Shown here in pieces: positions 7,369 through 30,106 of a stretch of 64,000 nt of DNA (the stretch's first letter is position 1; each line of letters opens with the position of its first letter). A program made the position numbers and the translations under genes. The stretch comes from Oscillospiraceae bacterium (GTDB taxonomy: Bacteria > Bacillota > Clostridia > Oscillospirales > Acutalibacteraceae): the NCBI GenBank assembly GCA_902802375.1, contig CADCLS010000003.1, forward strand, positions 1-64,000. The letters run 5' to 3'. The notes beneath the pieces are model-generated. The model had not been told where the DNA came from. It did no database searches and saw only the letters and a program-made list of their open reading frames with translations.

Positions 7369-8917
7369 GCTTGACGGCGTTATTTTGCCACTTGACACTG
7401 ATTTTAACAACTTAAAAACCGAACTTTCGAAAACGGTAGAGCCTAAGGACTCTATCGTTTCAGTGCGTTTACATAAAAAATCAGTAGACGCACGCGGTGC
7501 GGCACCGCGTTTTTGTTGTTCGTTTTTGCTTGAAGTAAAGGATGAAAAAGAGTTTATAAAGGCTAATAAAAACGCAAAAGTTTACGAGGCTTCGCCGTAT
7601 ATCTTCAAGAGAGCTGAATGCATACCGAAGTATCGTCCGATAGTTGTAGGCTTCGGTCCTGCAGGTATGTTCGCCTCACTTACTCTTGCACGAGCAGGGC
7701 TTAGTCCGTTGGTTTTGGAACGCGGCAGTGATGTAGATACAAGAACGAAAGATGTAAAAGAATTTTTTTCTGGCGGTGCGCTTAAATGCAACTCAAATAT
7801 TCAGTTCGGTGAGGGTGGAGCCGGCACATTTTCTGACGGCAAGCTTAATACCGGCATAAAAGATTTCCGAATCAGAGCTGTGCTTGAAGCCTTTGTTCAG
7901 TTCGGTGCTGACAGCGATATACTGTATGAAGCAAAACCGCATATAGGTACAGATGTTTTACGCAAAGTGGTTAAGAATATCCGCAAAGAAATAATACGCC
8001 TAGGCGGAGAAGTACGGTTTAATACCTGCCTTGAAAATATAAATATTTTAGGCGGGCGACTTGTAAGTATTATAGCCTCCGGTGAGGAAATAAGGACGGA
8101 TAATCTTTTCTTGTGTATAGGTCATTCGGCGAGAGATACATTCTTATCGTTAAAAAACACCGGCTTTGAGATGTGCCGTAAGCCTTTTGCCGTGGGTGTC
8201 AGAATAGAGCATTTGCAAAGGGATATTAACCGGTCGCTTTACGGTAAGTATGCAGGACATAAAAACTTAGGCACCGCAGATTACAAGCTTGCCGTGCATT
8301 TACCGTCAGGACGCGGAGTTTATACATTCTGTATGTGCCCTGGAGGTGAAGTGGTAAATGCTTCAAGTGAAATTGGCGGCATAGTTACGAACGGAATGAG
8401 TTACAAGGCAAGAGACGGTATCAATGCCAACAGTGCAGTGCTTGTAGGTGTAACACCTGAGGATATTAGCGGTACGGATGTGCTGGGCGGCATAAACTTC
8501 CAAAGAACCATTGAACAAACGGCTTATAACGCTTGCGGTGGTAAGGTGCCGGTATGCAGTGTGGGATATTTTCTTAAAAAGACGCCAAACGAAATAGGAG
8601 GCGTAAAGCCTACCGTGAAGCCGGATTTCGAGTTATATGATATAGAAAAGCTTTTCCCCGATTTTATATCTAACTCGCTTAAAAGCGGTATAACCTTAAT
8701 GGATAGAAAAATAAGGGGCTTTGCACATCATGACGCCATTATCTCAGCTCCTGAAACACGCTCGTCCTCACCGGTCAGAATTTTAAGACGAGAGGATATG
8801 CAGAGCGTGTCGGTAGAAGGTGTTTATCCTTGCGGTGAAGGCGCAGGATATGCCGGAGGCATAGTCTCCGCCGCGGTTGACGGTATAAAAGCCGCTGAAA
8901 GAATAATAAAAAGTTAA
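7361..8917 (+). CDS. FAD-dependent dehydrogenase, COG2509 type
   Basis: This 518-residue protein matches the uncharacterised FAD-dependent dehydrogenases grouped in COG2509. An N-terminal extension of about 90 residues precedes the FAD-binding VGFGPAGMFASLTLA. It continues with GEGGAGTFSDGKL, and near the C-terminus with PCGEGAGYAGGIVSAAVDG. Length and architecture are normal for the family, whose reaction is not established. It overlaps the preceding flavoprotein and ends about 80 bases before gapA, which has its own promoter. Confidence 0.82.
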   Translation: MIKLDGVILPLDTDFNNLKTELSKTVEPKDSIVSVRLHKKSVDARGAAPRFCCSFLLEVKDEKEFIKANKNAKVYEASPYIFKRAECIPKYRPIVVGFGPAGMFASLTLARAGLSPLVLERGSDVDTRTKDVKEFFSGGALKCNSNIQFGEGGAGTFSDGKLNTGIKDFRIRAVLEAFVQFGADSDILYEAKPHIGTDVLRKVVKNIRKEIIRLGGEVRFNTCLENINILGGRLVSIIASGEEIRTDNLFLCIGHSARDTFLSLKNTGFEMCRKPFAVGVRIEHLQRDINRSLYGKYAGHKNLGTADYKLAVHLPSGRGVYTFCMCPGGEVVNASSEIGGIVTNGMSYKARDGINANSAVLVGVTPEDISGTDVLGGINFQRTIEQTAYNACGGKVPVCSVGYFLKKTPNEIGGVKPTVKPDFELYDIEKLFPDFISNSLKSGITLMDRKIRGFAHHDAIISAPETRSSSPVRILRREDMQSVSVEGVYPCGEGAGYAGGIVSAAVDGIKAAERIIKS

Positions 8918-8934
8918 AAATTTATCAAAATAAC

Positions 8935-8963
8935 TTGAAAAATCAACACAAATAGGTTAAAAT
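8935..8963 (+). promoter_or_regulatory. gapA promoter
   Basis: TTGAAA at 8935-8940 and TAAAAT at 8958-8963 are separated by exactly 17 bases. AGGAGG at 8982-8987 then sits 10 bases before the gapA ATG. The layout is a standard vegetative promoter and gives a leader of under 30 bases. Confidence 0.75.
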
Positions 8964-8997
8964 AGGAAAAGTAAAATTTTTAGGAGGTTTTCTAATT

Positions 8998-10008
8998 ATG
9001 GTAAAAGTTGCAATTAACGGTTTTGGCCGTATCGGTCGTTTGGCATTCCGCCAGATGTTCGGCGCAGAGGGCTATGAGGTTGTTGCTATCAACGATCTTA
9101 CAAGCCCGGCGATGCTTGCTCATCTTCTTAAGTACGATTCAGCTCAGGGCAGATATGCTCTTGCTGATAAGGTTGAGGCCGGTGAGGACAGCATCACTGT
9201 TGACGGTAAAACCATCAAAATCTATGCTGAGAAGAATGCTGCTGATCTTCCTTGGGGCGAGATTGGCGTAGATGTTGTTCTTGAGTGCACAGGTTTCTAC
9301 TGCTCAAAAGAAAAGAGCCAGGCTCACATTGATGCCGGCGCTAAGAAGGTAGTTATTTCTGCTCCTGCAGGTAAGGACCTTCCGACAATCGTTTACAGTG
9401 TTAACGAGAATACTCTTACTAAAGAGGACAAAATCATTTCTGCCGCTTCCTGCACAACTAACTGCTTAGCTCCTATGGCTAATGCTCTTAATAAGTATGC
9501 ACCGATTCAAAGCGGTATTATGACCACCGTTCACGCTTTCACAGGCGACCAGATGGTTCTTGACGGTCCGCACAGAAAAGGCGATCTTCGCCGCGCTCGT
9601 GCCGCTGCCGTTAATATCGTTCCTAATTCAACCGGCGCTGCTAAAGCTATCGGTCTTGTAATTCCTGAGCTTAACGGTAAGCTTATCGGTTCTGCTCAGC
9701 GTGTTCCGGTTCCGACCGGTTCTACAACTATCCTTGTTGCAGTTGTTAAGGGCAAGGATATCACTGCCGATGGTATCAACGCCGCTATGAAGGCTGCTTC
9801 AAGCGCTTCCTTCGGCTACACTGAGGAGCCACTCGTATCTTCCGATATTATCGGCATCACATACGGCTCACTCTTTGATGCTACTCAGACAATGGTTACT
9901 AAGATTGATGATGATACCTATCAGGTACAGGTTGTTTCTTGGTATGACAACGAGAACAGCTATACAAGCCAGATGGTTCGCACAATCAAGTATTTTGCTG
10001 AAATCTAA
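8998..10008 (+). CDS. gapA: Glyceraldehyde-3-phosphate dehydrogenase
   Basis: This 336-residue glycolytic enzyme oxidises glyceraldehyde 3-phosphate to 1,3-bisphosphoglycerate with [11 protein letters not shown] at residues 7-14 begins the Rossmann fold, the catalytic cysteine is C152 in SAASCTTNC, and SWYDNENSY near the C-terminus is conserved. The gene has a consensus promoter, a strong ribosome binding site and its own terminator, so it is monocistronic. AAG is favoured over AAA for lysine, unlike the less expressed neighbours, which fits a highly expressed gene. Confidence 0.97.
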
Positions 10009-10028
10009 TTGGTTTATAGAAGATTATA

Positions 10029-10060
10029 AAAGCGGCGAGGGTGACCTCGCCGCTTTTTTA
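10029..10060 (+). terminator. gapA terminator
   Basis: A perfect 12-bp GC-rich stem (10029-10040 with 10045-10056) closes a GTGA tetraloop and is followed by a T run. This is a strong intrinsic terminator. Confidence 0.92.
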
Positions 10061-10072
10061 TAACGGAACCGC

Positions 10073-10474
10073 TTATATATATTTTTTACTTTTTCCTTTA
10101 TTTACTCCGAGTATTCCGCCTATGGCAGAGGCAAGAACTATAATTATAAAATGAAACAGAGTGTTCATAGTTAGCCCGTTTCTGTTTATTATGAGCGATA
10201 TAATTGTTACAACGGCAAAAGAGACGAGACCTACAAGTGTACCGATAAGATAACCTTTGCGCTCACTTTCTTTTGATACAATATATGCTGCGGTAAAACT
10301 GCCGAGCGCAAGACTCACAGTGGCAAACGGAACACTGTAGCCTCTGTCAATATTGCAAAAAAGTATAATTGCGGCAAACAGACACATAAAGATAAGTGTG
10401 ACTGAGACACCAATAAGCGCGCCTTTTATATATGTGGTGGCACTGCCACTCGATTTAGATGATAAATTTGACAT
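10073..10474 (-). CDS. TIGR04086-like small membrane protein
   Basis: This 133-residue protein has four hydrophobic segments and a basic C-terminus ending GKSKKYI. It resembles the TIGR04086 family of putative membrane proteins found beside yajC in clostridia; the function is unknown. It follows yajC on the minus strand with about 48 bases between. GGAGGG, eight bases before the ATG, is its ribosome binding site, but that sequence also forms the 3' arm of a hairpin (10481-10510), so its translation may be controlled. Confidence 0.72.
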   Translation of the reverse strand: MSNLSSKSSGSATTYIKGALIGVSVTLIFMCLFAAIILFCNIDRGYSVPFATVSLALGSFTAAYIVSKESERKGYLIGTLVGLVSFAVVTIISLIINRNGLTMNTLFHFIIIVLASAIGGILGVNKGKSKKYI

Positions 10475-10480
10475 AAAAAT

Positions 10481-10510
10481 CCCTCCGATAGACTTTACGC
10501 TACCGGAGGG
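10481..10510 (-). promoter_or_regulatory. Hairpin that would hide the TIGR04086 gene's RBS
   Basis: On the minus strand CCCTCCG (10510-10504) can pair perfectly with CGGAGGG (10487-10481) across a 16-base loop. The 3' arm contains the Shine-Dalgarno sequence of the downstream gene, followed by ATTTTTATG. It could be a translational control element. As a terminator it is weak, because the T run is short and leads into the start codon. Confidence 0.45.
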
Positions 10511-10521
10511 AAAAATATTAC

Positions 10522-10863
10522 TTATTTTTTAGGCGTATCGTCGTGAACAGTAAGATTTTGCTGAAGTGCCCAACGGGCGATTGTCAGCTTTGAGTGGTCG
10601 CTTTTGGACTCAATAACCATACTTTCTTCTTTTAGAGAGATAACTCTGCCGTAGATACCTCCGATGGTTACAACCTCATCACCTACCTGCAGATTCTCGC
10701 GCATTTGCTTTTCTTCTTTTTGCTTTTTGCGCTGAGGACGAATCATAAGAAAATACATAGCAACGAGCATTATTGCTATCCAACCGACCATAACTAAAAT
10801 AGAACTTCCGGTAGCGGCGCCGCCGTTAGTTGTAGCCGCAAGTGTTAAAAAACTGATGTTCAT
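10522..10863 (-). CDS. yajC: Preprotein translocase subunit YajC
   Basis: This 113-residue single-span protein is YajC, an accessory subunit of the Sec-DF membrane complex. A hydrophobic helix at about residues 20-42 leads into the family signature MIRPQRKKQKE. The conserved globular part follows, with VGDEVVTIGGIYGRV and a short acidic tail. It lies downstream of queA and tgt on the minus strand, the usual tgt-yajC order in bacteria, so this is a conserved operon. Confidence 0.92.
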   Translation of the reverse strand: MNISFLTLAATTNGGAATGSSILVMVGWIAIMLVAMYFLMIRPQRKKQKEEKQMRENLQVGDEVVTIGGIYGRVISLKEESMVIESKSDHSKLTIARWALQQNLTVHDDTPKK

Positions 10864-10928
10864 TTTTTTACCTCCAAAATGCTATAGGGCAATTATACAA
10901 TATTAAGTATTTAATTGCAAGAAAAAGA

Positions 10929-13105
<2,177 letters not shown>

Positions 13106-13151
13106 TCCCTTTATGTAGGTTATATTTGTGCATTCATCCGCATAAAATAGT

Positions 13152-13180
13152 TTGACAAAATATGACGGTAATGCTATTAT
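13152..13180 (+). promoter_or_regulatory. asd-dapA-dapB promoter
   Basis: TTGACA at 13152-13157 and TATTAT at 13175-13180 are 17 bases apart, and a TGC just before the -10 makes it an extended -10 promoter. It lies about 70 bases upstream of the asd ATG. Confidence 0.75.
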
Positions 13181-13250
13181 TTATAATGATATTATATTGC
13201 ATAACACAATCTATATCAACTATTTTTTGTTTTCACTTGGAGGCATTTTT

Positions 13251-14333
13251 ATGAAAACTTACAATGTCGGAATAATCGGGGCCACCGGAATGGTAGGTCA
13301 ACGGTTTGCTCTTTTGCTATCCGACCACCCTTGGTTTAAGGTTACAGTTCTTGCCGCGAGTAGTAGAAGCGCCGGTAAAACTTATGAAGAGGCTGTCACA
13401 CCCCGTTGGGCGATGAGCGAGCCTATACCGGAAAGTCTCAAAGGCATTACCGTTATGGACGCTACTGCGGATATTGATAAGATTTGTTCGTTGGTGGATT
13501 TTGTATTTTGCGCCGTTGATATGAAAAAGCCTGATATTTTAGCCCTTGAAGAGGCATATGCGAAGCACGAATGTCCGGTTGTATCAAACAACAGTGCTAA
13601 TCGTTTTACACCGGATGTTCCTATGGTAATACCCGAGCTTAATCCCGAACATATTGATATTATACCCGAGCAGAGAAAGCGGCTTGGAACAAAGCGTGGT
13701 TTTATTGCGGTAAAATCAAACTGTTCGCTGCAAAGCTATGTTCCGGCACTGTTTCCGCTTGATGAAAAATTTGGTGTGGATAAATGCTTGGTTTGCACAT
13801 ATCAGGCAATTTCCGGCGCCGGTAAGACATTTGAGCGCTGGCCGGAAATACTTGACAATGTAATTCCCTATATAGGTGGGGAAGAGGAAAAAAGCGAACG
13901 CGAACCGCTTAAAATTTGGGGTAAAATCGAGGGCGACCATATTGCACTCGCTAACGAGCCTAAATTTACGGCGCAATGCCTTAGAGTGCCTGTATCTGAC
14001 GGTCATATGGCGGCGGTATTCGTAAGCTTTAAGAAGAAACCTACAAAGGAAGAAATACTGGAGGTCTGGAAAAACTTTTCGGGTGTGCCTCAAGAGCTTA
14101 AACTTCCGCATGCACCAAAACAATTCCTTAATTATTTTGTTGAGGATGATATGCCTCAAACCAAACTCAACCGTAACCTTGAGGGCGGTATGGCAGTCAG
14201 TATCGGAAGGCTTAGAGAAGATACTCAGTACGACTATAAATTTGTTTGTCTTTCGCATAATACTCTTCGCGGCGCGGCAGGCGGCGGTGTTTTGCTCGCA
14301 GAGCTCCTTTGCGCCAAGGGTTATATGGATTAA
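13251..14333 (+). CDS. asd: Aspartate-semialdehyde dehydrogenase
   Basis: This 360-residue enzyme reduces aspartyl 4-phosphate to aspartate semialdehyde with NADPH, the branch point to lysine, threonine and methionine. GATGMVGQRF begins the nucleotide fold and SNCS near residue 160 holds the catalytic cysteine. Segments such as NNSANR and PELNPEHI place it in the archaeal/fungal-type subfamily rather than the E. coli type. GGAGG precedes the ATG at 13251, which I prefer to in-frame codons further upstream, where the promoter lies. It leads a lysine/diaminopimelate operon. Confidence 0.93.
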   Translation: MKTYNVGIIGATGMVGQRFALLLSDHPWFKVTVLAASSRSAGKTYEEAVTPRWAMSEPIPESLKGITVMDATADIDKICSLVDFVFCAVDMKKPDILALEEAYAKHECPVVSNNSANRFTPDVPMVIPELNPEHIDIIPEQRKRLGTKRGFIAVKSNCSLQSYVPALFPLDEKFGVDKCLVCTYQAISGAGKTFERWPEILDNVIPYIGGEEEKSEREPLKIWGKIEGDHIALANEPKFTAQCLRVPVSDGHMAAVFVSFKKKPTKEEILEVWKNFSGVPQELKLPHAPKQFLNYFVEDDMPQTKLNRNLEGGMAVSIGRLREDTQYDYKFVCLSHNTLRGAAGGGVLLAELLCAKGYMD

Positions 14334-14362
14334 GCTTTAATAATATTTTAGAGGTGTTTTTT

Positions 14363-15256
14363 ATGAAAAAGCGCATTTTTACCGGTGTGGGTACGGCACT
14401 TATTACCCCAATGAATGATGACGGCAGTATAAATTTTAACAGACTTAAAACTTTAGTTGAAGAACAGATTGCCAATTCGGTTGATGCGCTCATCATCTGT
14501 GGCACTACCGGCGAAAAGTCAACGCTTCGTTATGATGAGCATTTGCGTGTTATAGAGGTTGCGGCGAATACTGCTTGCGGCAGAGTACCTATTATTGCAG
14601 GTACCGGCAGTAATGATACTGTTTATTCAGTAGAGCTTTGCCGCGATGCTGAAAGCGTAGGTGCAGATGCATTTTTAATGGTAACGCCTTATTACAATAA
14701 GACTTCCCAAGCCGGTCTTATAGCTCATTATGACTACATAGCACAGCGTGTGAATAAACCCATAATTCTTTACAATGTTCCGTCTCGCACAGGCGTTACA
14801 ATAAAGCCTGAAACATACAAAGAGCTTTCAAAGTACGAGAATATAGTTGCAGTAAAAGAGGCGAACGGTGATTTGTCTTCGGTGGCACAAACGCGTTATC
14901 TTTGCGGCGATGAGCTTGATATTTATTCGGGAAATGACGACCAGACCGTGCCTATTATGTCGCTCGGCGGCATAGGCGTTATCTCGGTTTTATCAAATAT
15001 TTCGCCTAAAATAATGCACGATATTTGTGATAAGTTCTTAAACGGAGATACCAATGAGGCCGCCCGGTTACAGCTTAAGTATACAGGTCTTATGAATGCG
15101 CTTTTCAGCGATGTAAACCCGATACCGATAAAGGAAGCTATGAATGCTTTGGGAATGGATGTTGGTCCTTGCAGACTGCCTCTTTATAAAATGAGTGATA
15201 CTGCCCGTGATAATCTTAAGAACAAACTTATTGAGTGTGGTTTTACATTAAAATAA
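14363..15256 (+). CDS. dapA: 4-hydroxy-tetrahydrodipicolinate synthase
   Basis: This 297-residue class I aldolase condenses pyruvate with aspartate semialdehyde. GTTGEKSTL near residue 45 is the family signature, the tyrosine of LYNVPSRTG is catalytic, and the Schiff-base lysine lies in VAVKEANGD. The ATG at 14363 is preceded by GAGGTG; the open frame reads back into the end of asd but has no better start. It lies between asd and dapB in pathway order. Confidence 0.95.
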   Translation: MKKRIFTGVGTALITPMNDDGSINFNRLKTLVEEQIANSVDALIICGTTGEKSTLRYDEHLRVIEVAANTACGRVPIIAGTGSNDTVYSVELCRDAESVGADAFLMVTPYYNKTSQAGLIAHYDYIAQRVNKPIILYNVPSRTGVTIKPETYKELSKYENIVAVKEANGDLSSVAQTRYLCGDELDIYSGNDDQTVPIMSLGGIGVISVLSNISPKIMHDICDKFLNGDTNEAARLQLKYTGLMNALFSDVNPIPIKEAMNALGMDVGPCRLPLYKMSDTARDNLKNKLIECGFTLK

Positions 15257-20674: not shown

Positions 20675-22285
20675 TTATTCTTTGTTTTCAATATAATAAT
20701 AAACTTTTCCGTCTTTCTCTTTTGCATACTTATCAAGAGTATCATATGCTTTTGAAAGAGCAAAGGTAAATTCTCCTGTTTTGCCTTTTGATTTCTCAAG
20801 CTTGCTGAAATCATTATAGCTGCTTAAATCAGTTATTTCTTTATCACCGAAATCATAATACCAAATGTACTTATACGAAAGCTCTTCTTTTGCTTTGTTT
20901 GCAATTTCACTGTTTTTATCCTTCGTGAGCAGGTAAAGATACGGAATGCCTTCATCTTCAAGATTGGAAATGTATTCGACATCTATTTCCTTGCCGCTGT
21001 CAACATAAGAATTATAGTTGTACTTTGCAATCTGAAGATTGATATTTGAAATACCGAGCACAGAAATAATCACAAGAGCGAGGGTAAGCGCGGTTTTGAG
21101 TATATCTAGCTTCTTTACGAACAGACGGATAAAAACGCCTATAAATAAAACTAAAAGCCATATTATAAAAGCACAAGCGCAAACTCTCGATACTGTAAGC
21201 GCATAAGCGCCCATATACATAACCATTTTGGAAAGCGCCGTAAATATAATTATTAAGGTGAATATCACCGTCAGCGCACCGGGGATTTTAACGGCTAAGG
21301 GTATCTTTTCTTCACTTTTTTCGGTCAGGGCAACCGTAGCAAAGATTATTGCGAAGTTTATTGCAGCGATAGCGCAAAGCTCAAAGAAACCACGGCGAGC
21401 GTACTGAGCGTAAGTGAATTTATAGCCCGCAGGCAATATGCTCGAAAAAGCGGAGAAGAAATATGCAAGCTGAGTTATGAGATATACAACATAAACAAAT
21501 GATAGAATTGATAAAAATGTTGCGAAAGTTACTTTACTAATAGAGAAATTGATTGATTTGAAGTTACTCTCTTTTTTGTTGTACTTCAGTGAGAACACAC
21601 CGCCGATTATGAAAATCGAAACTGCGAGACCAAAAATAATTTTGGTGATTTCTTCGGCAAAATTTGAGACTAACTTATTAAGAAGTGCGGCAAAGGCGTC
21701 GTCAGAGCGAGCAAGCAAAGGCACTATTATTGCCAGCGCCGGCAAAGCACAGGCTATACCGACTAAAACTGCTATGGTGTTTTTTGATTTCTTTTCTCCT
21801 CTTGAAAAGAAGCTCTTGATTATTGCCGGCAAATCTGAAAAGGCGTTTATTACGGATGATGCTACATATACAATAAGGCTGTAATCGCTTTTTATATACT
21901 CTTTTCCCGAAATACAGGAGAACCATATGATAGAAGAAACGGCTGTGATAACAAAAGCTAAGAACTTTATGCCCATATTTGATGTCACAGAAAAGGAAAA
22001 CGAGCAGATGAGCGAAAGTATACCGCACGCCGAAAAGGTGGGGCTTGGCTTCTTTCCGCCTTTAAGCAGAAAAACCGAAATAAGGATAAAAGCGGTACAA
22101 AATACTACTGTATATCCAACCGATAGGGCGTCCCAAAAAATTGCGGATACTCCGAAAATAGAAATGATGCATAAAAGCGCCGCAACGATAATATCCGACG
22201 GTTTTCTCGAGAACAACGGCTTAACGGTGTAGTTTTTTAATCCTACACTTGCAGTTGGGTTTTGCATATCAATTTTTTCGTCCAT
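20675..22285 (-). CDS. DUF4153/DUF4173-like multi-pass membrane protein
   Basis: This 536-residue protein has a dozen or so hydrophobic segments after a short cytoplasmic N-terminus. It ends in a soluble tail of about 110 residues with alternating charged and aromatic residues. The pattern, including GFFELCAIAAINFAI, resembles the DUF4153/DUF4173 group of uncharacterised integral membrane proteins. GGAGG lies seven bases before the chosen ATG at 22285; the frame extends upstream but without a better start. No function can be assigned. Confidence 0.7.
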   Translation of the reverse strand: MDEKIDMQNPTASVGLKNYTVKPLFSRKPSDIIVAALLCIISIFGVSAIFWDALSVGYTVVFCTAFILISVFLLKGGKKPSPTFSACGILSLICSFSFSVTSNMGIKFLAFVITAVSSIIWFSCISGKEYIKSDYSLIVYVASSVINAFSDLPAIIKSFFSRGEKKSKNTIAVLVGIACALPALAIIVPLLARSDDAFAALLNKLVSNFAEEITKIIFGLAVSIFIIGGVFSLKYNKKESNFKSINFSISKVTFATFLSILSFVYVVYLITQLAYFFSAFSSILPAGYKFTYAQYARRGFFELCAIAAINFAIIFATVALTEKSEEKIPLAVKIPGALTVIFTLIIIFTALSKMVMYMGAYALTVSRVCACAFIIWLLVLFIGVFIRLFVKKLDILKTALTLALVIISVLGISNINLQIAKYNYNSYVDSGKEIDVEYISNLEDEGIPYLYLLTKDKNSEIANKAKEELSYKYIWYYDFGDKEITDLSSYNDFSKLEKSKGKTGEFTFALSKAYDTLDKYAKEKDGKVYYYIENKE

Positions 22286-22313
22286 AACATACCTCCGAAA
22301 ATCAATATATAAT

Positions 22314-22342
22314 ATTTTACCACAAAAACCATATTTTTTCAA
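22314..22342 (-). promoter_or_regulatory. Promoter of the DUF4173-like gene
   Basis: On the minus strand TTGAAA (22342-22337) and TAAAAT (22319-22314) are separated by 17 bases, the same pair of boxes as at gapA. It lies about 30 bases from the ATG. Confidence 0.7.
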
Positions 22343-22359
22343 CTGCGAGGTATTTTTGG

Positions 22360-22388
22360 TTGAAAAATGCTGTGAGGCGTGTTAAAAT
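22360..22388 (+). promoter_or_regulatory. Promoter of the MATE transporter gene
   Basis: TTGAAA (22360-22365) and TAAAAT (22383-22388) are 17 bases apart. It is divergent from, and about 20 bases away from, the promoter of the DUF4173-like gene. Confidence 0.68.
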
Positions 22389-22416
22389 CTCATTGTATAA
22401 TAAAATGAGGTTTTTT

Positions 22417-23793
22417 ATGAAAAGCAGACTTATAGGTGATAGGGCGTTTTACAGCAGAGCATTAAGGCTGGCAGTGCCCATTATGATTCAAAACGGAATA
22501 ACAAATTTCGTGAATATGCTGGATAATCTTATGGTGGGCGCAGTAGGCACAGCTGCCATGACCGGCGTTGCCGTGGCAAATCAGCTTGTTTTTATTTTTA
22601 ATCTTTGTATTTACGGCGCGATTTCGGGCGCCGGAATATTCGCGGCGCAGTTTTACGGTAAGGGCGATAATGAGGGCGTCAGGTATACCTTTCGCTTTAA
22701 GCTGATGATTTGTGCCGTTATAACGGTTGTTTTCGGAATAATAGTGCTTTTTAAGGGCGATTTCTTGTTAGGACTATACCTTAGAGGCGAGGGAAGTGCG
22801 GAACTGGCGAAAGAGAGCCTTGATATAGCACATAATTATATAAGTATAATTTTGATTGGTATTTTTCCTTATGCAATAGCTCAAAGCTACGGCGGAACGC
22901 TAAGGGAAACCGACAGACCGAAAGTTCCTATGTACGCCGGTATAGCGGCGGTAACAGTTAATCTTATACTCAATTATTTGCTTATCTTCGGGCATTTCGG
23001 ATTTCCGTGCCTGGGCGCTGAGGGTGCCGCGATTGCTACGGTAATATCGAGATTTGTCGAGCTTATTTATGTTGTGCTGAGAACGCATATCGGCAAAAAA
23101 AGCACATTTATTATAGGTGCGTTTCGTTCGCTTAAAGTGCCGATAGTCCTTGTTAGAAGTATGTTTATTAAAGGTATGCCGCTGCTTGTTAACGAGCTTC
23201 TTTGGAGTATGGGTATAGTTTTTATAAATCAGTGCTACAGTGTAAGAGGTCTTGCCGTTGTTGCTGCTGACAATATTGCGATGACATTTTTCAATGTTTT
23301 TTCGGTAGTGTTTATGTCTGTGGGCGTGGCAATCGGTATTATTGTAGGTCAGATGCTCGGTTCGGGTGAACTCGAAAAGGTAATGGATACTGCCGTTAAA
23401 CTGCGTGCCTTTTCAGTGTTTACGGCTGTAATTGTCGGATTATTATTTGCGGCATTTTCAGGGCTTATACCGAATATGTATAACACTACAGATGAAGTGC
23501 GGCGGCTCGCGCGTTGGCTTATGATTCTTTGTGCCGCCGGAATGCCTATTGACGCTTTTGCACACGCATCATATTTTACCTTGCGCTCAGGCGGCAAGGT
23601 CATGATAACGCTTATATTCGATTCGTTTTTTGTGTGGCTAGTATCGGTGCCGTTTGCATTTGTTATAAGCAGATATACAAGCCTGCCGATTATACCGTTC
23701 TTTGCTCTTTCTCAGGCGCTGAATATCTTGAAATGCCTCCTCGGTTATTTCTATGTAAAGAAAGGCTCGTGGATTAAAAACCTTGTCCGGTAG
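22417..23793 (+). CDS. MATE family efflux transporter
   Basis: This 458-residue membrane protein has about 12 transmembrane segments in two similar halves, typical of MATE cation-coupled drug/sodium antiporters. Characteristic segments include PIMIQNGITNFVNMLDNLMVG near the N-terminus and the matching start of the second half, KGMPLLVNELLWSMG. TGAGG precedes the ATG at 22417. Substrates cannot be inferred. It is upstream of the small-protein locus but has its own promoter, and that locus has another, so a functional link is not shown. Confidence 0.88.
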   Translation: MKSRLIGDRAFYSRALRLAVPIMIQNGITNFVNMLDNLMVGAVGTAAMTGVAVANQLVFIFNLCIYGAISGAGIFAAQFYGKGDNEGVRYTFRFKLMICAVITVVFGIIVLFKGDFLLGLYLRGEGSAELAKESLDIAHNYISIILIGIFPYAIAQSYGGTLRETDRPKVPMYAGIAAVTVNLILNYLLIFGHFGFPCLGAEGAAIATVISRFVELIYVVLRTHIGKKSTFIIGAFRSLKVPIVLVRSMFIKGMPLLVNELLWSMGIVFINQCYSVRGLAVVAADNIAMTFFNVFSVVFMSVGVAIGIIVGQMLGSGELEKVMDTAVKLRAFSVFTAVIVGLLFAAFSGLIPNMYNTTDEVRRLARWLMILCAAGMPIDAFAHASYFTLRSGGKVMITLIFDSFFVWLVSVPFAFVISRYTSLPIIPFFALSQALNILKCLLGYFYVKKGSWIKNLVR

Positions 23794-23847
23794 ATTATTG
23801 GAATTCGTTTTATGAAAAATTCACAAATGATTTTGTAGGAAATTATA

Positions 23848-23876
23848 TTGACAATTCTTTTTCTTTGTGATATCAT
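23848..23876 (+). promoter_or_regulatory. Promoter of the small-protein/cohesin operon
   Basis: TTGACA (23848-23853) and TATCAT (23871-23876) are exactly 17 bases apart. It sits about 40 bases before the first small gene and defines the start of a four-gene unit that ends at the terminator near 25937. Confidence 0.75.
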
Positions 23877-23917
23877 ACAAATGATATTACAGGTTAGATG
23901 GAGTTGTACATAAGAGT

Positions 23918-24070
23918 ATGCTTGAATCACCCTATGAAGAACCGCTTTTTGAGATATATGAATTGCTCTATGATGCCGATGTCGTTGCGGCATCACCGCC
24001 TGATGGTGGCCAGCATCTTGATGAAGGCGGCAATGATGACGATTCGGGTCATTACGGAGATTTTTGGTGA
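23918..24070 (+). CDS. Small acidic protein with C-terminal GDFW
   Basis: This 50-residue open frame is too short for ordinary gene calling but is well placed: it lies 40 bases after a consensus promoter and resembles the next small gene. The first half reads YEEPLFEIYELLYDADVVAAS. The second half is rich in G, D and N and ends HYGDFW. The core EE-x3-EIY-x-L...DV-[VI]-A-x-S is shared with the protein at 24177, and the last four residues GDFW are shared with the membrane protein at 25409. There is no signal peptide or transmembrane segment. The ribosome binding site is poor. From memory, short proteins with an EI..L..DVI..S core are common and unnamed in gut Firmicutes; function unknown. Confidence 0.62.
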   Translation: MLESPYEEPLFEIYELLYDADVVAASPPDGGQHLDEGGNDDDSGHYGDFW

Positions 24071-24176
24071 CAACTCATTCGACCTGTAGTAATAGTTGCG
24101 TTTGGTAAATCGCAGTTGCCTTCCGCAGCTTAGATTTGGTTTTCTGTTTCGAATATTAAATACGGAGGTGGATTAT

Positions 24177-24311
24177 ATGCCTAAGGATATATTTGAAGAG
24201 GCATATATAGAAATTTACAAACTTAAAGCGTCCGATGTTATCGCCACATCTCTTACAGATGATGGTACTATTGAAGACGGCACTGGTGATGAAATTGATT
24301 TCGGAGATTAA
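24177..24311 (+). CDS. Small acidic protein, paralogue of the preceding one
   Basis: This 44-residue protein has a very good ribosome binding site (GGAGGTG at 24164-24170). It shares the motif FEEAYIEIYKL...SDVIATS with the protein at 23918, followed by an acidic tail (DDGTIEDGTGDEIDFGD). It lacks the terminal GDFW but ends in a similar aromatic-glycine-acidic cluster. It has no signal peptide. It lies 13 bases before the secreted cohesin-like protein and is surely cotranscribed with it. I do not recognise a function; a regulator, chaperone, modified peptide precursor or docking peptide are all possible. Confidence 0.68.
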   Translation: MPKDIFEEAYIEIYKLKASDVIATSLTDDGTIEDGTGDEIDFGD

Positions 24312-24324
24312 GGAGAAGGCAGAA

Positions 24325-25392
24325 ATGAAAAAAAATCTTACAAAAATATTTACTTTGATGTTGGCGCTTGCGTTGGCTTTTAGTGCTTTCGCGATATCTC
24401 CTCTTACTGTTGATGCAACTGAGGGTGATGTTAAAGTTTATGACTCTTATAGTTATAATGATTTCGCGTCTTTGATTAGTGGGCATACTGCTCCTGTAAA
24501 AACGGGCTATCTTTTTGCCGGTTGGTTTAATGATGATCAGGGCGAGTCTGCTATAGCCGACTTTGGTGATGTTGAAAATCGCACGAGCGTTTATGCAAAG
24601 TTTATTCGCGCTGATATGTCACGAATTGCCGTTCAGCTTAATTATGTAAGTAATCCTGAAAGCAATCCTGATAGAACAATGCGTTTGGTATCAATAGTTG
24701 ATTCAACACATTATGCCGCCGTAGGTTTTAAGCTTTATCGCCGCAACACATCAGGAGTGGAATCATCACAAAAAATAAGCAATGGCACTAAAATATATTC
24801 AACCCTAAGAAAATACACAAACGAAACGACTAGTAATGATGTACAACCTTATGAAGTGTTTGGTTCCGATGCGAGTGGCTATATGTTTACTACCGTTAAA
24901 ATAACAAATATCAAAGAGGCACATTATCAGTCTTCGATGATTGCAAGACCGTATTGGGTAACCATAGACGGTACCGAGGTAGACGGCCTTGGTGAGTTTA
25001 ACAGTGTTTATTCTTATATAAATGAGATAGTTAACATCTCAATTAATACCAAACAGGCGGCCGATATTGCTGCAGGTATGTTGACTGTCAATTACGATTC
25101 AACTAAGTTTGAATATGTAGGTGCTGATTACGGTCGTGTATTTGGTGATATGAGTTTTTCTGATGACGGTAACGGCACATTTAAGTGTGTTGGCGTTGTT
25201 TCTGATACAAGTACTAATTCCGCTAATCCGAATGATGTTTTTGTAAACCTCAAGTTCAGAATAAAGGATGGTGTCACTCTCACTCAAGGAGATTCAGCAT
25301 TTACATCGACAATAGCCCCGAATGATTTCTGCGATATTAACGAGGTTTTCAAAGATAGCAGTTCAATATCGGTTCCAACTATAAAATTCTGA
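24325..25392 (+). CDS. Secreted protein with InlB-type repeat and cohesin-like domain
   Basis: This 355-residue protein starts with a Sec signal peptide (lysines, hydrophobic core at about residues 9-25, likely cleavage near residues 25-33). One InlB/Listeria-Bacteroides-type repeat follows (about 55-95: GYLFAGWFNDD ... VYAKF). A middle domain (about 118-222) runs from RLVSIVDSTHY to ARPYWVTIDGTEVDG, a pattern I associate with clostridial surface proteins. The C-terminal 120 residues look like a cohesin domain (VNISINTKQA...GMLTVNYDSTKFEYVGA...). No dockerin, SLH, LPXTG or transmembrane anchor is visible. AAGGAG precedes the ATG. A longer paralogue follows at 26142. Confidence 0.72.
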   Translation: MKKNLTKIFTLMLALALAFSAFAISPLTVDATEGDVKVYDSYSYNDFASLISGHTAPVKTGYLFAGWFNDDQGESAIADFGDVENRTSVYAKFIRADMSRIAVQLNYVSNPESNPDRTMRLVSIVDSTHYAAVGFKLYRRNTSGVESSQKISNGTKIYSTLRKYTNETTSNDVQPYEVFGSDASGYMFTTVKITNIKEAHYQSSMIARPYWVTIDGTEVDGLGEFNSVYSYINEIVNISINTKQAADIAAGMLTVNYDSTKFEYVGADYGRVFGDMSFSDDGNGTFKCVGVVSDTSTNSANPNDVFVNLKFRIKDGVTLTQGDSAFTSTIAPNDFCDINEVFKDSSSISVPTIKF

Positions 25393-25408
25393 TATTTTAG
25401 TGAGGACT

Positions 25409-25858
25409 ATGAAAAATCGAAAGAATATTTTGATTATTTGTGCTATAATTCTTGCCGTCGCGTTACTGATAGCATGCATCTGCGTTGCTGTCAACTCAAA
25501 GAAGAGTAGTGGAGAGGGCAAGACCAATAACACGGGTAACGAATCGGGCACAGGCCTTATAGTTATCGAAAATCCTGACGATCCTCAGACGATTACTGTT
25601 GAAGATGGCGGCAAGCCTGAAAGCGAGCCGACGATTTCGATTGATGATTTTGACGATAACCAATCGAAAACAAATACTTCATCAAATCAATCTGAAAATG
25701 AAGATAAAAAATCGAATGGCAGCAAAGCGTCAGAATCTCAGCAGTCGGGTGCAAGCAGTACGGATGATAAAAGTCAAGATAGTCAAAGCTCAGATAAACA
25801 AACGAGCGAGGGCAGTAGTTCTGAACAAGAACCTGATAAATTTGGTGACTTTTGGTAA
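25409..25858 (+). CDS. Membrane-anchored low-complexity protein ending GDFW
   Basis: This 149-residue protein has one N-terminal transmembrane helix (about residues 7-28) after a basic start, suggesting an outside-facing C-terminal part. Residues 30-145 are low-complexity, rich in S, D, E, Q, K and N, with short segments such as GLIVIENPDDPQTITVEDGG. The final residues are KFGDFW, the same last four as the 50-residue protein at 23918. GAGGA sits directly before the ATG, 16 bases after the cohesin gene, and a perfect 15-bp terminator follows. No family is recognised; it could be a stalk or anchor for the co-encoded cohesin protein. Confidence 0.66.
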   Translation: MKNRKNILIICAIILAVALLIACICVAVNSKKSSGEGKTNNTGNESGTGLIVIENPDDPQTITVEDGGKPESEPTISIDDFDDNQSKTNTSSNQSENEDKKSNGSKASESQQSGASSTDDKSQDSQSSDKQTSEGSSSEQEPDKFGDFW

Positions 25859-25899
25859 TTTTTAAGCGATAAATTTAATAATCATATCAGTTTGTTTGT

Positions 25900-25937
25900 A
25901 ATCAAGCAATCACCAATAGGTGATTGCTTGATTTTTG
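25900..25937 (+). terminator. Terminator of the small-protein/cohesin operon
   Basis: A perfect 15-bp stem (25900-25914 with 25919-25933) closes an AATA loop and runs into a T-rich tail. It ends the four-gene unit. Confidence 0.9.
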
Positions 25938-26031
25938 TCTTGTATTATGTATCATGTCGATTTGTATTATATGATACTATATATATTTTTTTAATTTTTG
26001 CTAAAAATGTTAAAAAATTATAAAAAAAGTA

Positions 26032-26060
26032 TTGATTGTGGAAAAAAATTGTGATATTAT
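26032..26060 (+). promoter_or_regulatory. Promoter of the large cohesin paralogue
   Basis: TTGATT (26032-26037) and TATTAT (26055-26060) are 17 bases apart. The transcript would have a leader of about 75 bases of very AT-rich sequence before the ATG at 26142. Confidence 0.62.
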
Positions 26061-26141
26061 TAAATTGCGAAAAAAATAACACTTTAATTTATCTTATTTT
26101 GTGTTATAAATTTATTTGATATTACTAGGGAGATAGTGACT

Positions 26142-28214
26142 ATGAAAAGAAAGTTTCAAAAAGTTTTTGCTTTGGTGTTGGTGCTTGCGTTAACTGTCGG
26201 CGCCTTCACAATGTTATCAGTTGTCGCGGAATCGACTGAAGGCGAAATTATAGTATATGAATCTTATACTTACAACGACTTCAAACCTTTAATTAATAGT
26301 CACACTGCACCTGTTAAAAATGGCTATCTTTTTGCGGGCTGGTTTAACGATGATCAGGGTGACTCTGCTATAGCTGACTCTGGTGATGTGAAAAGTGGCA
26401 CGAGTGTTTATGCAAAGTTTATTCGTGCGGATATGTCAAGGATTGCTGTACAACTTGACTATTCATCAAGTGATCCAATTATTTTGTCTGACGGCAGCAA
26501 TACGGCTTCTCACTGGTCTTATGCTATATCTAGTAATATGAGACAAAATGATACAAATGGCAATCCGGACTCGCATGTTCACGTAGAATGTGGTCGCGGC
26601 GCACTGCGTGAGTTGACATTCACGCCGTCATCAGCAGTTGATATGTCAAGCCGTACCACAATTCAGTGGGATATATGTGTTATTGAAAGTACCGGTGTTG
26701 AGAATTTTGAAGCTGTTAAGGCGGCTTATGAAAGCACTATGAAGTTGACCGTGAGTGACGGAGAAAATACAGCGGTTATCCCGATTTCCCAGTGGAATGT
26801 AGGCAGTACCGATTACCGTTGGCGTGAAGTAAGCGCATCTCTTAAAAATAGTGGTCTTAATCTTTCTCATATTACATCTTTCCAGTGGTGCTTTGTACCT
26901 ACAGGAACCGGAGTTAATAATTCTTTGCCCGAGAAAGTGTTTGTTCGCTTTGATAATGTTAAAGCTATCACAAAGAGCGAAATATCAGAATTATCTGACG
27001 GTAGTGACAAAGTAACTCATTGGGTCTATTCAGGAAATTCCAGCAGCTTCGGACAAAATGAAGCGAACGGTAACCCTGGCAATTGCATACATGTAGCCAC
27101 AGGACACGGCGCGTTGCGTGAGTTAACATTTACGCCGGAATCACCTGTTAATATGGTCGCAAAATCTACTATCCAGTGGGATATGTCGGTTTATAAGGCC
27201 GAGGGTGCGGTTGAATGTTTTAATGATGTTAAGGCGGCTTATACAAACACCATGAAACTAACCGTAAGCGACGGCACAAATACGGCGGTTATTCCGGTTT
27301 CCGAGTGGAGTGTAGGAAATGCCACCGGTAACAATAGCCGTTGGCGTACAATCCGTGTATCTCTTGAAAACAGGGAGATTAATCTCTCTAATATTGTATC
27401 CTTCCAGTGGTCAACTCTGGCATCAACGGAGAGCAATGATTTACTTGCAACATCGCTGCCTGACATTGTTTGTCGCTTCGATAATGTTAAAGCTATTCAG
27501 TTAAGAACAATGCGCTTGGTATCAATAGTCGATTCAACCCATTATGACACAATAGGTTTTAAGCTTTATCGTCGTACCGCAGCAGGAGTGGAATCATCAC
27601 AAATATTAAGCAAAGGCACCAAAATATATTCAAGCCTGAGGAAATACACAAACGAAACGAATCATGTGGATGTAGGGCCTGTTAGTGTGTTTGGTAGCGA
27701 TGCTACAGGATTTAAGTTTACCACCGTGAAGGTAAAGAATATTACGGAAGCACATTTTGATTCCTCAATTATTGCAAGACCATTTTGGAAAACAGTGGAC
27801 GGTACCGAAGTTGATGGCCTTGGTGAATTCAACAGTGTGGATTCTTATTTGAATCGTACTGTTAACATATCAATCAACACGAAACAGGCTGCCCGGATTG
27901 CCGCAGGTATGTTGACCGTTAATTATGATAACAGTAAATTTAGTTATTTAGGTGCAGATTACGGACGCGTATTTTCCGAGATGAGTTTTTTAAATACAGG
28001 CAGTTCTGTTAAATGTGTAGGTGTTGTTGGCGACGCAAGCGCTAACTCACCTAATCCTAACGATGTATTTGTAAACCTTAAGTTTGCAAAGAAAGACGGT
28101 GTAACACTTACAAAAGGCGATTCATCATTTAGTGTCATCATTGGAGAAAACAGCTTCTGTGATATTAATGAAGCCTTTAATAATTCAGTAACTGCTCCCG
28201 CAATTAAATACTGA
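26142..28214 (+). CDS. Secreted InlB-repeat/cohesin-like protein with two inserted tandem modules
   Basis: This 690-residue secreted protein is a paralogue of the one at 24325. It has the same signal peptide type, one InlB-type repeat (about residues 55-95), the RLVSIVDSTHY middle domain (about 457-560) and a C-terminal cohesin-like domain (about 572-690). Between the InlB repeat and the middle domain it carries two tandem copies of a roughly 165-residue module (about 113-276 and 283-453), each with GALRELTFTP, IQWD, KLTVSDG.NTAVIP and RFDNVKAI. The modules look like beta-sandwich carbohydrate-binding domains, but this is inference. AGGGAG precedes the ATG. It has its own promoter and terminator. 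No dockerin or wall anchor is seen. Confidence 0.7.
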   Translation: MKRKFQKVFALVLVLALTVGAFTMLSVVAESTEGEIIVYESYTYNDFKPLINSHTAPVKNGYLFAGWFNDDQGDSAIADSGDVKSGTSVYAKFIRADMSRIAVQLDYSSSDPIILSDGSNTASHWSYAISSNMRQNDTNGNPDSHVHVECGRGALRELTFTPSSAVDMSSRTTIQWDICVIESTGVENFEAVKAAYESTMKLTVSDGENTAVIPISQWNVGSTDYRWREVSASLKNSGLNLSHITSFQWCFVPTGTGVNNSLPEKVFVRFDNVKAITKSEISELSDGSDKVTHWVYSGNSSSFGQNEANGNPGNCIHVATGHGALRELTFTPESPVNMVAKSTIQWDMSVYKAEGAVECFNDVKAAYTNTMKLTVSDGTNTAVIPVSEWSVGNATGNNSRWRTIRVSLENREINLSNIVSFQWSTLASTESNDLLATSLPDIVCRFDNVKAIQLRTMRLVSIVDSTHYDTIGFKLYRRTAAGVESSQILSKGTKIYSSLRKYTNETNHVDVGPVSVFGSDATGFKFTTVKVKNITEAHFDSSIIARPFWKTVDGTEVDGLGEFNSVDSYLNRTVNISINTKQAARIAAGMLTVNYDNSKFSYLGADYGRVFSEMSFLNTGSSVKCVGVVGDASANSPNPNDVFVNLKFAKKDGVTLTKGDSSFSVIIGENSFCDINEAFNNSVTAPAIKY
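26481..27500 (+). repeat. Tandem in-frame module duplication
   Basis: Two copies of the module (about 26481-26972 and 26988-27500) lie head to tail inside the large cohesin-like gene. They are clearly homologous in protein but diverged in DNA. The shorter paralogue lacks both, and the flanks match at its residues 106-118, so the pair behaves as an inserted cassette. Confidence 0.75.
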
Positions 28215-28379: not shown

Positions 28380-29081
28380 ATGATAATTTCTAAAGAAGTA
28401 GAAAATATGTGCCCGGTTACTAAGGGTCCGCATCACGGTCCTGCGCCTATTCCGGAAGAGGCAAAGTGGGTACAGGCTAAAGAGATTAAAGACATTTCAG
28501 CGTACACACACGGTGTCGGCTGGTGTGCACCTCAGCAGGGTGCTTGCAAGCTCTCTCTTAATGTTAAAGACGGTATAATCGAGGAGGCTCTTGTTGAGAC
28601 TATCGGTTGCTCGGGTATGACTCATTCGGCAGCTATGGCGGCGGAAATACTCCCGGGTAAAACCATTTTAGAGGCTCTTAATACCGACCTTGTTTGCGAT
28701 GCTATCAATACCGCTATGCGCGAGTTATTTTTACAGATAGTTTACGGTCGTTCACAGTCCGCTTTCTCTGAGGACGGTCTTTCTATCGGTGCCGGTATGG
28801 AGGACCTCGGAAAGGGCGCACGCTCAATGGTAGGTACTATGTACGGCACAAAGGTTAAGGGCGTAAGATACCTTGAAATGACCGAGGGCTATTGCACAAA
28901 AATGGCTCTTGACGAGAATAACGAAGTTATCGGTTATGAGTTTGTTTCTCTCGGTAAAATGACCGATTTCATCAAAAAAGGTATGGAGCCAAATGAGGCT
29001 TATGAGAAGTCTATCGGTCATTACGGCAGATTTAGTGAAGAAGACGGCGCGGTTAAGTATATTGACCCGCGCAAAGAATAA
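28380..29081 (+). CDS. Iron-sulfur cluster assembly scaffold-like protein
   Basis: This 233-residue protein resembles the large NifU/IscU-like scaffold proteins of clostridia. Candidate cluster ligands are C49 and C56 in GWCAPQQGACKL and C77 in TIGCSGMTHS, with further cysteines at 11 and 106 and in EGYCTKMAL. It is longer than classical IscU (about 130 residues). I chose the ATG at 28380; a TTG six codons upstream is less likely. It is followed 14 bases later by the GGGtGRT protein, a pairing I recall from related genomes. Lysine codons are mostly AAG, suggesting high expression. Confidence 0.72.
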   Translation: MIISKEVENMCPVTKGPHHGPAPIPEEAKWVQAKEIKDISAYTHGVGWCAPQQGACKLSLNVKDGIIEEALVETIGCSGMTHSAAMAAEILPGKTILEALNTDLVCDAINTAMRELFLQIVYGRSQSAFSEDGLSIGAGMEDLGKGARSMVGTMYGTKVKGVRYLEMTEGYCTKMALDENNEVIGYEFVSLGKMTDFIKKGMEPNEAYEKSIGHYGRFSEEDGAVKYIDPRKE

Positions 29082-29095
29082 GGAGGAGAGAAGTT

Positions 29096-30106
29096 ATGGC
29101 ACAGTTTGAAGGTTATGAGAGACGCGAGGCCAAGATTCTCGCCGCTTTGAAAAATTACGGCATTTCGTCTATTGATGAGTGCAAGGATATCTGCGACAGC
29201 AAGGGTATTGACCCTTATACAATAGTTGGTGAAACACAGCCGATTTGTTTTGAAAATGCAAAATGGGCATATACTGTAGGCTCTGCTATTGCTATTAAGG
29301 AGGCTGAGCGTACTGGTGATAAGTCTGCGGCGGCAGCGGCGGCTAATATCGGTATCGGCCTGCAGGCTTTCTGTATTCCCGGCTCTGTTGCTGAAAACCG
29401 CAAGGTAGGTCTCGGCCACGGAAACCTCGGCAAGATGCTTTTGTCAGAGGAGACTGAGTGCTTCTGCTTCCTTGCAGGTCACGAGTCATTTGCGGCGGCT
29501 GAGGGCGCTATAAAAATCGCTCTTAACGCTAACAAGGTTCGTAAACAACCGCTTCGCGTAATCCTTAACGGTCTTGGCAAGGACGCCGCTTATATCATTT
29601 CAAGAATAAACGGCTTTACCTATGTTGAAACCGAGTTCGACCCGTACAGTGAAGAAGTAAAAGTTGTATATGAAAAGCCGTTCTCTAATGGCGCCCGTGC
29701 AAATGTTAAATGCTATGGCGCTGATAATGTTCCTGAGGGCGTTGCTATTATGAAGCTTGAAAAGGTTGGCGTTTCAATTACCGGTAACTCCACTAATCCG
29801 ACTCGCTTCCAGCACCCTGTTGCCGGCACATACAAGAAATGGTGCGTTGAAAATGGCGTAAATTATTTCTCTGTTGCTTCCGGCGGCGGCACAGGCAGAA
29901 CGCTTCACCCGGATAATATGGCGGCAGGTCCGTCTTCTTACGGTATGACTGATACTATGGGTCGTATGCACTCTGACGCTCAGTTTGCAGGTTCTTCATC
30001 TGTTCCTGCTCATGTTGAGATGATGGGGCTCATAGGTGCGGGCAACAACCCGATGGTTGGTATGACTGTTGCTTGCGCGGTTGCGGTTGAAGAAGCGCTT
30101 AAGTAA
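29096..30106 (+). CDS. GGGtGRT protein
   Basis: This 336-residue protein has the signature SGGGTGRTLHPDN near residue 262 that gives the family its name; its biochemical function is not established. A glycine- and methionine-rich C-terminal segment (YGMTDTMGRMHSDAQ, GLIGAGNNPMVGM) follows. GGAGGAGAG precedes the ATG. It is cotranscribed with the Fe-S scaffold-like protein and ends at a terminator. The two share the codon style of gapA and nifJ. A role linked to iron-sulfur metabolism is suggested by the neighbour only. Confidence 0.8.
   Translation: MAQFEGYERREAKILAALKNYGISSIDECKDICDSKGIDPYTIVGETQPICFENAKWAYTVGSAIAIKEAERTGDKSAAAAAANIGIGLQAFCIPGSVAENRKVGLGHGNLGKMLLSEETECFCFLAGHESFAAAEGAIKIALNANKVRKQPLRVILNGLGKDAAYIISRINGFTYVETEFDPYSEEVKVVYEKPFSNGARANVKCYGADNVPEGVAIMKLEKVGVSITGNSTNPTRFQHPVAGTYKKWCVENGVNYFSVASGGGTGRTLHPDNMAAGPSSYGMTDTMGRMHSDAQFAGSSSVPAHVEMMGLIGAGNNPMVGMTVACAVAVEEALK

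Follow-up and report, generated by a model that had tools for sequence, protein, structure and literature searches.

The window, by which we mean the whole 64,000-nt stretch of DNA analysed, contains a compact four-gene unit (Table 1). The genes encode, in order, two small acidic proteins, a secreted protein and a membrane-anchored low-complexity protein. The ORFs are separated by 106, 13 and 16 nt and lie where a first reading of the letters (hereafter the sequence-only reading) had placed them, between the promoter and the terminator that it had also described. The promoter matches the consensus at 11 of 12 positions, has a TG before the second hexamer and ranks first among 30 promoter-like sites in positions 22000-28000; shuffled sequence averages 17.9 such sites, so only this rank is informative. 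The stem of the terminator is the longest of nine found (shuffles gave 4.5). The Shine-Dalgarno sequence is weak and distant for the first small gene, and good for the second small gene and for the gene of the 355-aa protein. As a prediction from sequence, the four-gene unit is confirmed.

Table 1. Predicted features of the four-gene unit and its flank (positions in the window).
Feature	Position	Strand	Basis
Sigma-70-type promoter, TTGACA-17-TATCAT, TG-extended	23848..23876	+	Consensus match only
Small acidic precursor-type peptide 1, 50 aa, tail end GDFW	23918..24070	+	Family profile built without this genome
Peptide 1 putative leader, YxxPxFEIY...DADVVAAS (Tyr6, Pro9, Phe11, Ser26)	23918..23995	+	Alignments A1 and A2, motif counts; leader/tail border inferred
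Small acidic precursor-type peptide 2, 44 aa	24177..24311	+	Same family profile
Peptide 2 putative leader, FxxAxIEIYKLKASDVIATS (Ser25)	24177..24251	+	Alignments A1 and A2, motif counts; border inferred
Secreted protein, 355 aa: signal peptide, InlB-type repeat (residues 33-92), cohesin (residues 230-341)	24325..25392	+	PF00963 and TIGR02543 over cut-offs
Membrane-anchored low-complexity stalk, 149 aa, end FGDFW, possible lipoprotein (LIAC)	25409..25858	+	Hydrophobic segment, tail comparison
Intrinsic terminator, 15-pair stem	25900..25933	+	Hairpin search
Secreted paralogue of the 355-aa protein, 690 aa, outside the four-gene unit	26142..28214	+	Identity to the 355-aa protein

The domain content of the larger proteins is also as first described. 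The 355-aa protein scores 28.1 bits with Pfam Cohesin (cut-off 24.1) and 24.9 with List_Bact_rpt (cut-off 20.95), and falls just under the cut-off of Pfam Flg_new (26.8 versus 27). None of the four proteins has a dockerin match in Pfam. The 149-aa protein has a single N-terminal hydrophobic segment followed by a body rich in Ser, Asp and Glu. The LIAC sequence within this segment fits a lipobox, and thus the stalk may be a lipoprotein. The 690-aa paralogue is 65% identical to residues 1-110 and 71% identical to residues 115-355 of the 355-aa protein. It is encoded 3' of the terminator and apparently has two extra internal repeats. Close relatives of the 355-aa protein are absent from the 69 other genomes of the genus, where one weak match was found (E 9.8e-6), and a search of the genome_contigs set returned two weak matches. 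Single-sequence AlphaFold2 prediction of this protein gave no usable model (mean pLDDT 34).

Neither the two window peptides nor nine of their relatives match any model in Pfam or NCBIfam. The homology of the two small frames proposed by the sequence-only reading is weak in pairwise comparison (E 0.119) and becomes clear once a family profile made without either of them is used. This profile was built from 52 sequences, none of them from this genome (G000), and applied to 2961 ORFs of the window and five further stretches of the genome. It ranked peptide 2 first (E 3.5e-10) and peptide 1 second (E 9e-5); a 140-aa ORF on contig G000:C9 and a 48-aa ORF on G000:C2 complete the top four, and the next ORF, a non-family sequence, has an E-value of 4.9. 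A single-sequence search of 70 genus genomes gave matches in 18 (E up to 1), and profile A2 detected the family in 42 of the 70 (E up to 0.02). With the earlier profile A1, members were found in 42 of 300 family-level genomes and 28 of 135 genera (E up to 0.01). These comparisons establish the small proteins as a genuine family for which Pfam and NCBIfam have no model.

Conservation is confined to about the first 25 residues, and the tails vary (alignment A2, 55 sequences). Within the conserved part, a relaxed leader motif, [YF]xx[PAS]x[LIMFVW], occurs in 45 of 55 sequences; 200 shuffles gave a mean of 2.85 and a maximum of 7. The strict form YxxPx[LIM] occurs in 22 of 55, and the window peptides have YxxPxF and FxxAxI in this position. 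A junction of the DVxxTS type is found in 51 of 55 family members, and the Ser column is without exception in A2. In 16 of the 53 sequences with a match to the pattern, the residue directly after the junction Ser is Gly. By sequence, the window peptides are short ORFs with a putative conserved leader and a variable tail, the form expected of RRE-dependent RiPP precursors. Two further members are encoded in this genome: a third of the orphan type, on C2, is located beside a lipoprotein gene, and a fourth is the C9 ORF directly before a PqqD gene. In the C9 locus (L098, G000:C9:33000-51000, at 6914-8898) the order is an acyltransferase-like membrane protein (Pfam match below cut-off), the 140-aa Gly/Tyr-rich ORF with the leader motif, and then PqqD.

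Genes of this family are tightly associated with genes for large exported proteins. A same-strand ORF of at least 200 aa ends no more than 250 nt upstream of 79 of the 88 unique small genes located away from contig edges, with a median gap of 29 nt. These upstream ORFs include 27 that are cut off at the end of a locus; 47 of the 52 others have signal-peptide-like N-termini by our own hydropathy rule, compared with a baseline of 126 of 361 long ORFs from the same loci. A scan of the loci sampled identified 16 short low-complexity Sec-exported proteins or lipoproteins, 12 of which, by our own reading, are beside small or PqqD genes (the stalk in the window is included, and two of the 12 are from one locus). 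Of the neighbourhood that the sequence-only reading proposed to look for in relatives, the link to secreted-protein genes and, in some loci, to low-complexity lipoproteins is borne out. Gene order differs: the small genes come first in the window, and in most relatives the gene for the secreted protein precedes the small one. Locus L103 has the order seen in the window (small gene, secreted protein, low-complexity lipoprotein).

The same reading had proposed cohesin/InlB proteins as the companions of the small-protein core, and this does not hold in general. Pfam cohesin is absent from ten hand-picked secreted neighbours of small genes (310-560 aa), and these ten share no Pfam domain above cut-off. 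A cohesin search of the genus gave matches in 65 of 70 genomes; among the matches listed (down to E of about 2e-6), only those in the window and in G062:C6 are within 5 kb of a small gene, a proximity that a rough estimate places at about chance level. On the ten neighbours and the genus matches listed, cohesin as a constant partner of the family was rejected. The 355-aa protein has the Pfam cohesin domain in common with cellulosome cohesins. Unlike a cellulosome, the unit encodes no protein with a dockerin match, and cohesin is no constant feature of the small-gene loci.

The end of the stalk, FGDFW, echoes the GDFW end of peptide 1. The tail-to-tail score of this pair is 34, and none of 1600 cross-locus pairings reached 28. 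Similar pairs occur in L143 (GWSDWWTPEF / GWSDWWTPEY), L135 and L124. Weaker likeness was seen on C2 of this genome (L175, G000:C2:152000-168000, at 8203-8803), where a small precursor-type gene is followed by a lipoprotein gene and the tails are DLPIIPIG and ELPLIIFD. Scores of at least 25 were obtained for 5 of 80 tail pairs against 0.15 expected, in a set that includes the five loci that had suggested the idea. Without those loci, 1 of 68 pairs scored at least 25 (0.28 expected) and none reached 28, which is no excess. In a later set, 1 of 38 pairs, from the C2 locus, scored at least 22 (0.26 expected) and none reached 25. Tail copying as a general rule was rejected, as there is no excess outside the loci that prompted it; the pair in the window and the few others are thus single observations.

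In relatives, some small genes are located close to putative peptide-modification genes, far more often than chance would give. Among 54 small genes from 40 other genomes of the family, a PqqD gene lies no more than 5 kb from 15, always on the same strand (0.56 expected). In the genus, the PqqD matches listed place one within 5 kb of 21 of 85 small genes (1.28 expected). These 85 remain from 100 rows after removal of the two window peptides, the rows G000:C9 and G055:C7, and 11 further rows with matches weaker than E 8e-4. Seven of the 21 linkages are opposite-strand, and six of these seven apparently represent one orthologous divergent locus. The genomes are related, so these counts are not independent. 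No PqqD was found within 5 kb of 39 of the 54 and 64 of the 85 small genes, some of which are near contig ends. In sampled loci, the genes after the small gene encode a ScmC/HprK-like kinase, PqqD (E 1.1e-17, 6.5e-13), a signal-peptidase-like S26 protease and NTP_transf_5; in some there is also an ABC exporter (ABC membrane domain). PqqD is encoded in 67 and HprK-like proteins in 59 of 70 genus genomes, so that their mere presence says little. In L143, a second cluster on the other strand (9141-14859), near the small gene, encodes a CxxxCxxC protein, an ABC transporter and an NTP_transf_5-like protein. The gene at 28380-30106 of the window, near the unit, is GGGtGRT-like, and similar genes occur near PqqD/small-gene clusters in L183 and L143. 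This is possibly a shared insertion site with such clusters, although the association is not significant by a rough estimate.

Some family members have Cys-containing tails. A radical SAM gene, recognised by CxxxCxxC plus GG[ED]P, occurs within 5 kb of all five Cys-tail small genes and of none of the 49 others (p 3e-7); the 54 genes have at least 3 kb of downstream sequence and come from hand-picked loci. In four of these five loci, PqqD too is encoded no more than 5 kb away. Loci with Cys-containing members and a radical SAM gene are L181, L182, L183, L184 and L185, most of them near genes for an HprK-like kinase, PqqD and S26-like proteins. The Cys-tail members are a possible sactipeptide-like branch. 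They resemble radical SAM RiPPs (sactipeptides, ranthipeptides) in being encoded with a radical SAM gene. The window peptides differ in that they lack Cys, and no radical SAM gene was seen in the unit.

No modifying gene adjoins the window peptides; the gene set is encoded outside the window. This genome has two PqqDs, on G000:C10 and G000:C9 (E 1.2e-12 and 1.9e-10), neither of which adjoins the HprK-like kinase gene. A row of genes on G000:C1 encodes an ABC exporter (ABC_tran, E 1.9e-25), an S26-like protease, an HprK-like kinase (E 4.7e-77) and NTP_transf_5 (E 1.3e-31). The exporter (L190, G000:C1:246000-262000, at 8277-10172) has an acidic end with Trp (GNDDLWNM), and its relative in L179 ends in EGWWNI. 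Our own S26 profile, grown from a protein that matches the signal peptidase model TIGR02228 below its cut-off, identified two S26-like proteases in this genome (E 3.2e-45 and 3.3e-37); neither matches a Pfam or NCBIfam model. By our own reading, the C1 protease has the boxes SMLPLL, LHRI and GDN, and the three boxes are kept in 31 of 39 unique S26-like proteins. On C10 (L097, G000:C10:98000-116000, at 8462-11000), genes for PqqD and an S26-like protease are divergent from a gene for a 506-aa secreted protein. No small ORF was seen after this secreted-protein gene in G000:C10, and one is present after its orthologue in G013 (L099).

Based on these comparisons, we consider it probable that the unit is a surface-protein operon and that the window peptides are orphan precursors of the RRE-dependent RiPP type, modified in trans by PqqD, HprK-like and S26-like enzymes. 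Residues 1 to about 25 would form a leader bound by a PqqD-like protein through the YxxPxL-type motif, and the acidic or aromatic rest of the peptide would be the tail ('core'). The candidate enzymes are the PqqDs on C10 and C9, the C1 row (exporter, S26-like protease, kinase and NTP_transf_5) and the second S26-like protease, beside the C10 PqqD. PqqD would present the precursor to the kinase, which may modify either the invariant Ser of the D(V/I)xxTS junction or a Ser or Thr beyond it. Leader removal would then fall to the S26-like protease, and the peptide would be exported to function at the cell surface together with the secreted protein and the membrane stalk encoded alongside it. The sequence-only reading had suggested a dedicated display, anchoring or processing system for cohesin-like proteins. 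This interpretation is supported in part: a candidate processing system is encoded next to small genes in relatives, but here the enzymes are elsewhere in the genome, and cohesin finds no support as a special partner.

The nearest model for these steps is a lasso-peptide system described in the accessible text of PMC10368454. There, B1 proteins recognise a YxxPxL leader only if its Tyr, Pro and Leu are intact, and an HPr-kinase-like enzyme phosphorylates the precursor far more strongly when the PqqD-like B1 is present. The analogy suggests that the window peptides may be bound by PqqD and phosphorylated near the junction, then cut and exported. The same text reports that residues of two kinase motifs, GKS and NDDKP, are important. 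The kinase of this genome has GTGKTTH and NGDKP, in which Thr replaces the motif Ser and Gly the first Asp. In kinases of relatives, DD occurs in 33 of 43 rows (duplicates included) and the strict two-part pattern in 20 of 43; GxGKSTH and the second Asp are invariant in the ten-row alignment A3. The departures here (GKT for GKS, NGDKP for NDDKP) weaken the proposed phosphorylation step. The invariant Ser could serve recognition rather than phosphorylation.

The small proteins might instead act unmodified, as adaptors that chaperone or dock the secreted neighbour while the stalk provides the anchor. The closeness of the small genes to genes for secreted proteins (a signal-peptide-like start in 47 of the 52 upstream ORFs that are intact, against 126 of 361) fits this, as do the low-complexity lipoproteins of some loci. 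We nevertheless judge such a role unlikely, because it explains neither the linkage to PqqD nor the match between Cys-tails and radical SAM genes, and because the ten secreted partners have no Pfam domain above cut-off in common. A regulatory function, with the small genes as leader ORFs through which translation or attenuation governs the secreted-protein gene that follows them, would suit the window, where they sit between the promoter and that gene. In most relatives, however, the small gene comes after the secreted-protein gene, and it is the protein sequence that is conserved, with an invariant Ser; we consider this function extremely improbable.

It is also very improbable that these are ordinary lasso-peptide precursors served by a protease and a cyclase from another part of the genome. 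The leader, which resembles YxxPxL, would agree with this assignment, and three of the four PqqDs scanned have an NCBIfam lasso PqqD model as their best match, all below cut-off. According to the accessible parts of PMC10368454, PMC7533575 and PMC4289311, HprK-like kinases occur in lasso clusters. Yet a search for the B2 protease (PF13471) gave no match in this genome; across 19 genomes no match exceeded the cut-off, although G303 and G228 each gave a weak one below it. In addition, Gly follows the junction Ser in fewer than a third of the pattern-matching sequences.

The orphan-precursor reading can also be set against described systems. The small family shares a leader resembling YxxPxL (strict form in 22 of 55 sequences), a discrete PqqD-like protein and an HprK-like kinase with the BsfA/BsfB1/BsfK lasso system, as far as the accessible text of PMC10368454 describes it. 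Unlike that system, it has an S26-like protease, and no B2 protease above cut-off was found in the genomes searched; its tails are acidic or aromatic and variable, and its genes are beside those of large secreted proteins. Genes for HPr kinase, PqqD and nucleotidyltransferase, the same three kinds as around the small family, are common in rumen genomes (about 58%, 46% and 30%, respectively; PMC7533575). The accessible part of that source frames them as lasso clusters and names no acidic precursor family or surface-protein neighbours. We also compared the enzymes with the SynChlorMet ScmC/ScmD and HPr-rel-A models (TIGR04249, TIGR04248, TIGR04352, TIGR04353). Among NCBIfam models, the kinases scanned match ScmC best, and one of four PqqDs matches ScmD best, in every case far under the curated cut-off. 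Membership of the kinases in ScmC (18.9 to 39.4 bits, cut-off 125) or HprK_rel_A (at most 14 bits, cut-off 200) was rejected.

The combination of the small family, PqqD, HprK-like kinase and surface genes was not met in our literature searches, which had subscription papers and bioRxiv outside their scope. The remark of the sequence-only reading that it knew of no described system has to be qualified: lasso biology already features the leader motif, PqqD and HPr-kinase-like enzymes. These features hint at an undescribed kind of modified, perhaps surface-linked, peptide. A broader proposal is that they define a new RiPP-like class, in which orphan leader-bearing acidic peptides are encoded with individual surface proteins, modified (phosphorylated or otherwise) by a shared PqqD/HprK/S26 set, exported, and act with a stalk displaying a genetically encoded copy of the tail. 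We regard this as conceivable but rather doubtful, the more so as tail copying shows no general excess.

RRE-Finder identified about 8,000 discrete lasso-type RREs, about 4,000 of them with lasso partners, the rest being described as possible false positives in the accessible text (PMC7470986). The PqqDs of the small-family loci could belong to this partnerless remainder, from which they differ in coming with a precursor family, a kinase and an S26-like protease. The small family may thus supply candidate substrates for lasso-type PqqDs that lack a lasso protease and cyclase, as far as that source describes them, and it would link a peptide-modifying pathway to the secreted surface proteins of these bacteria.
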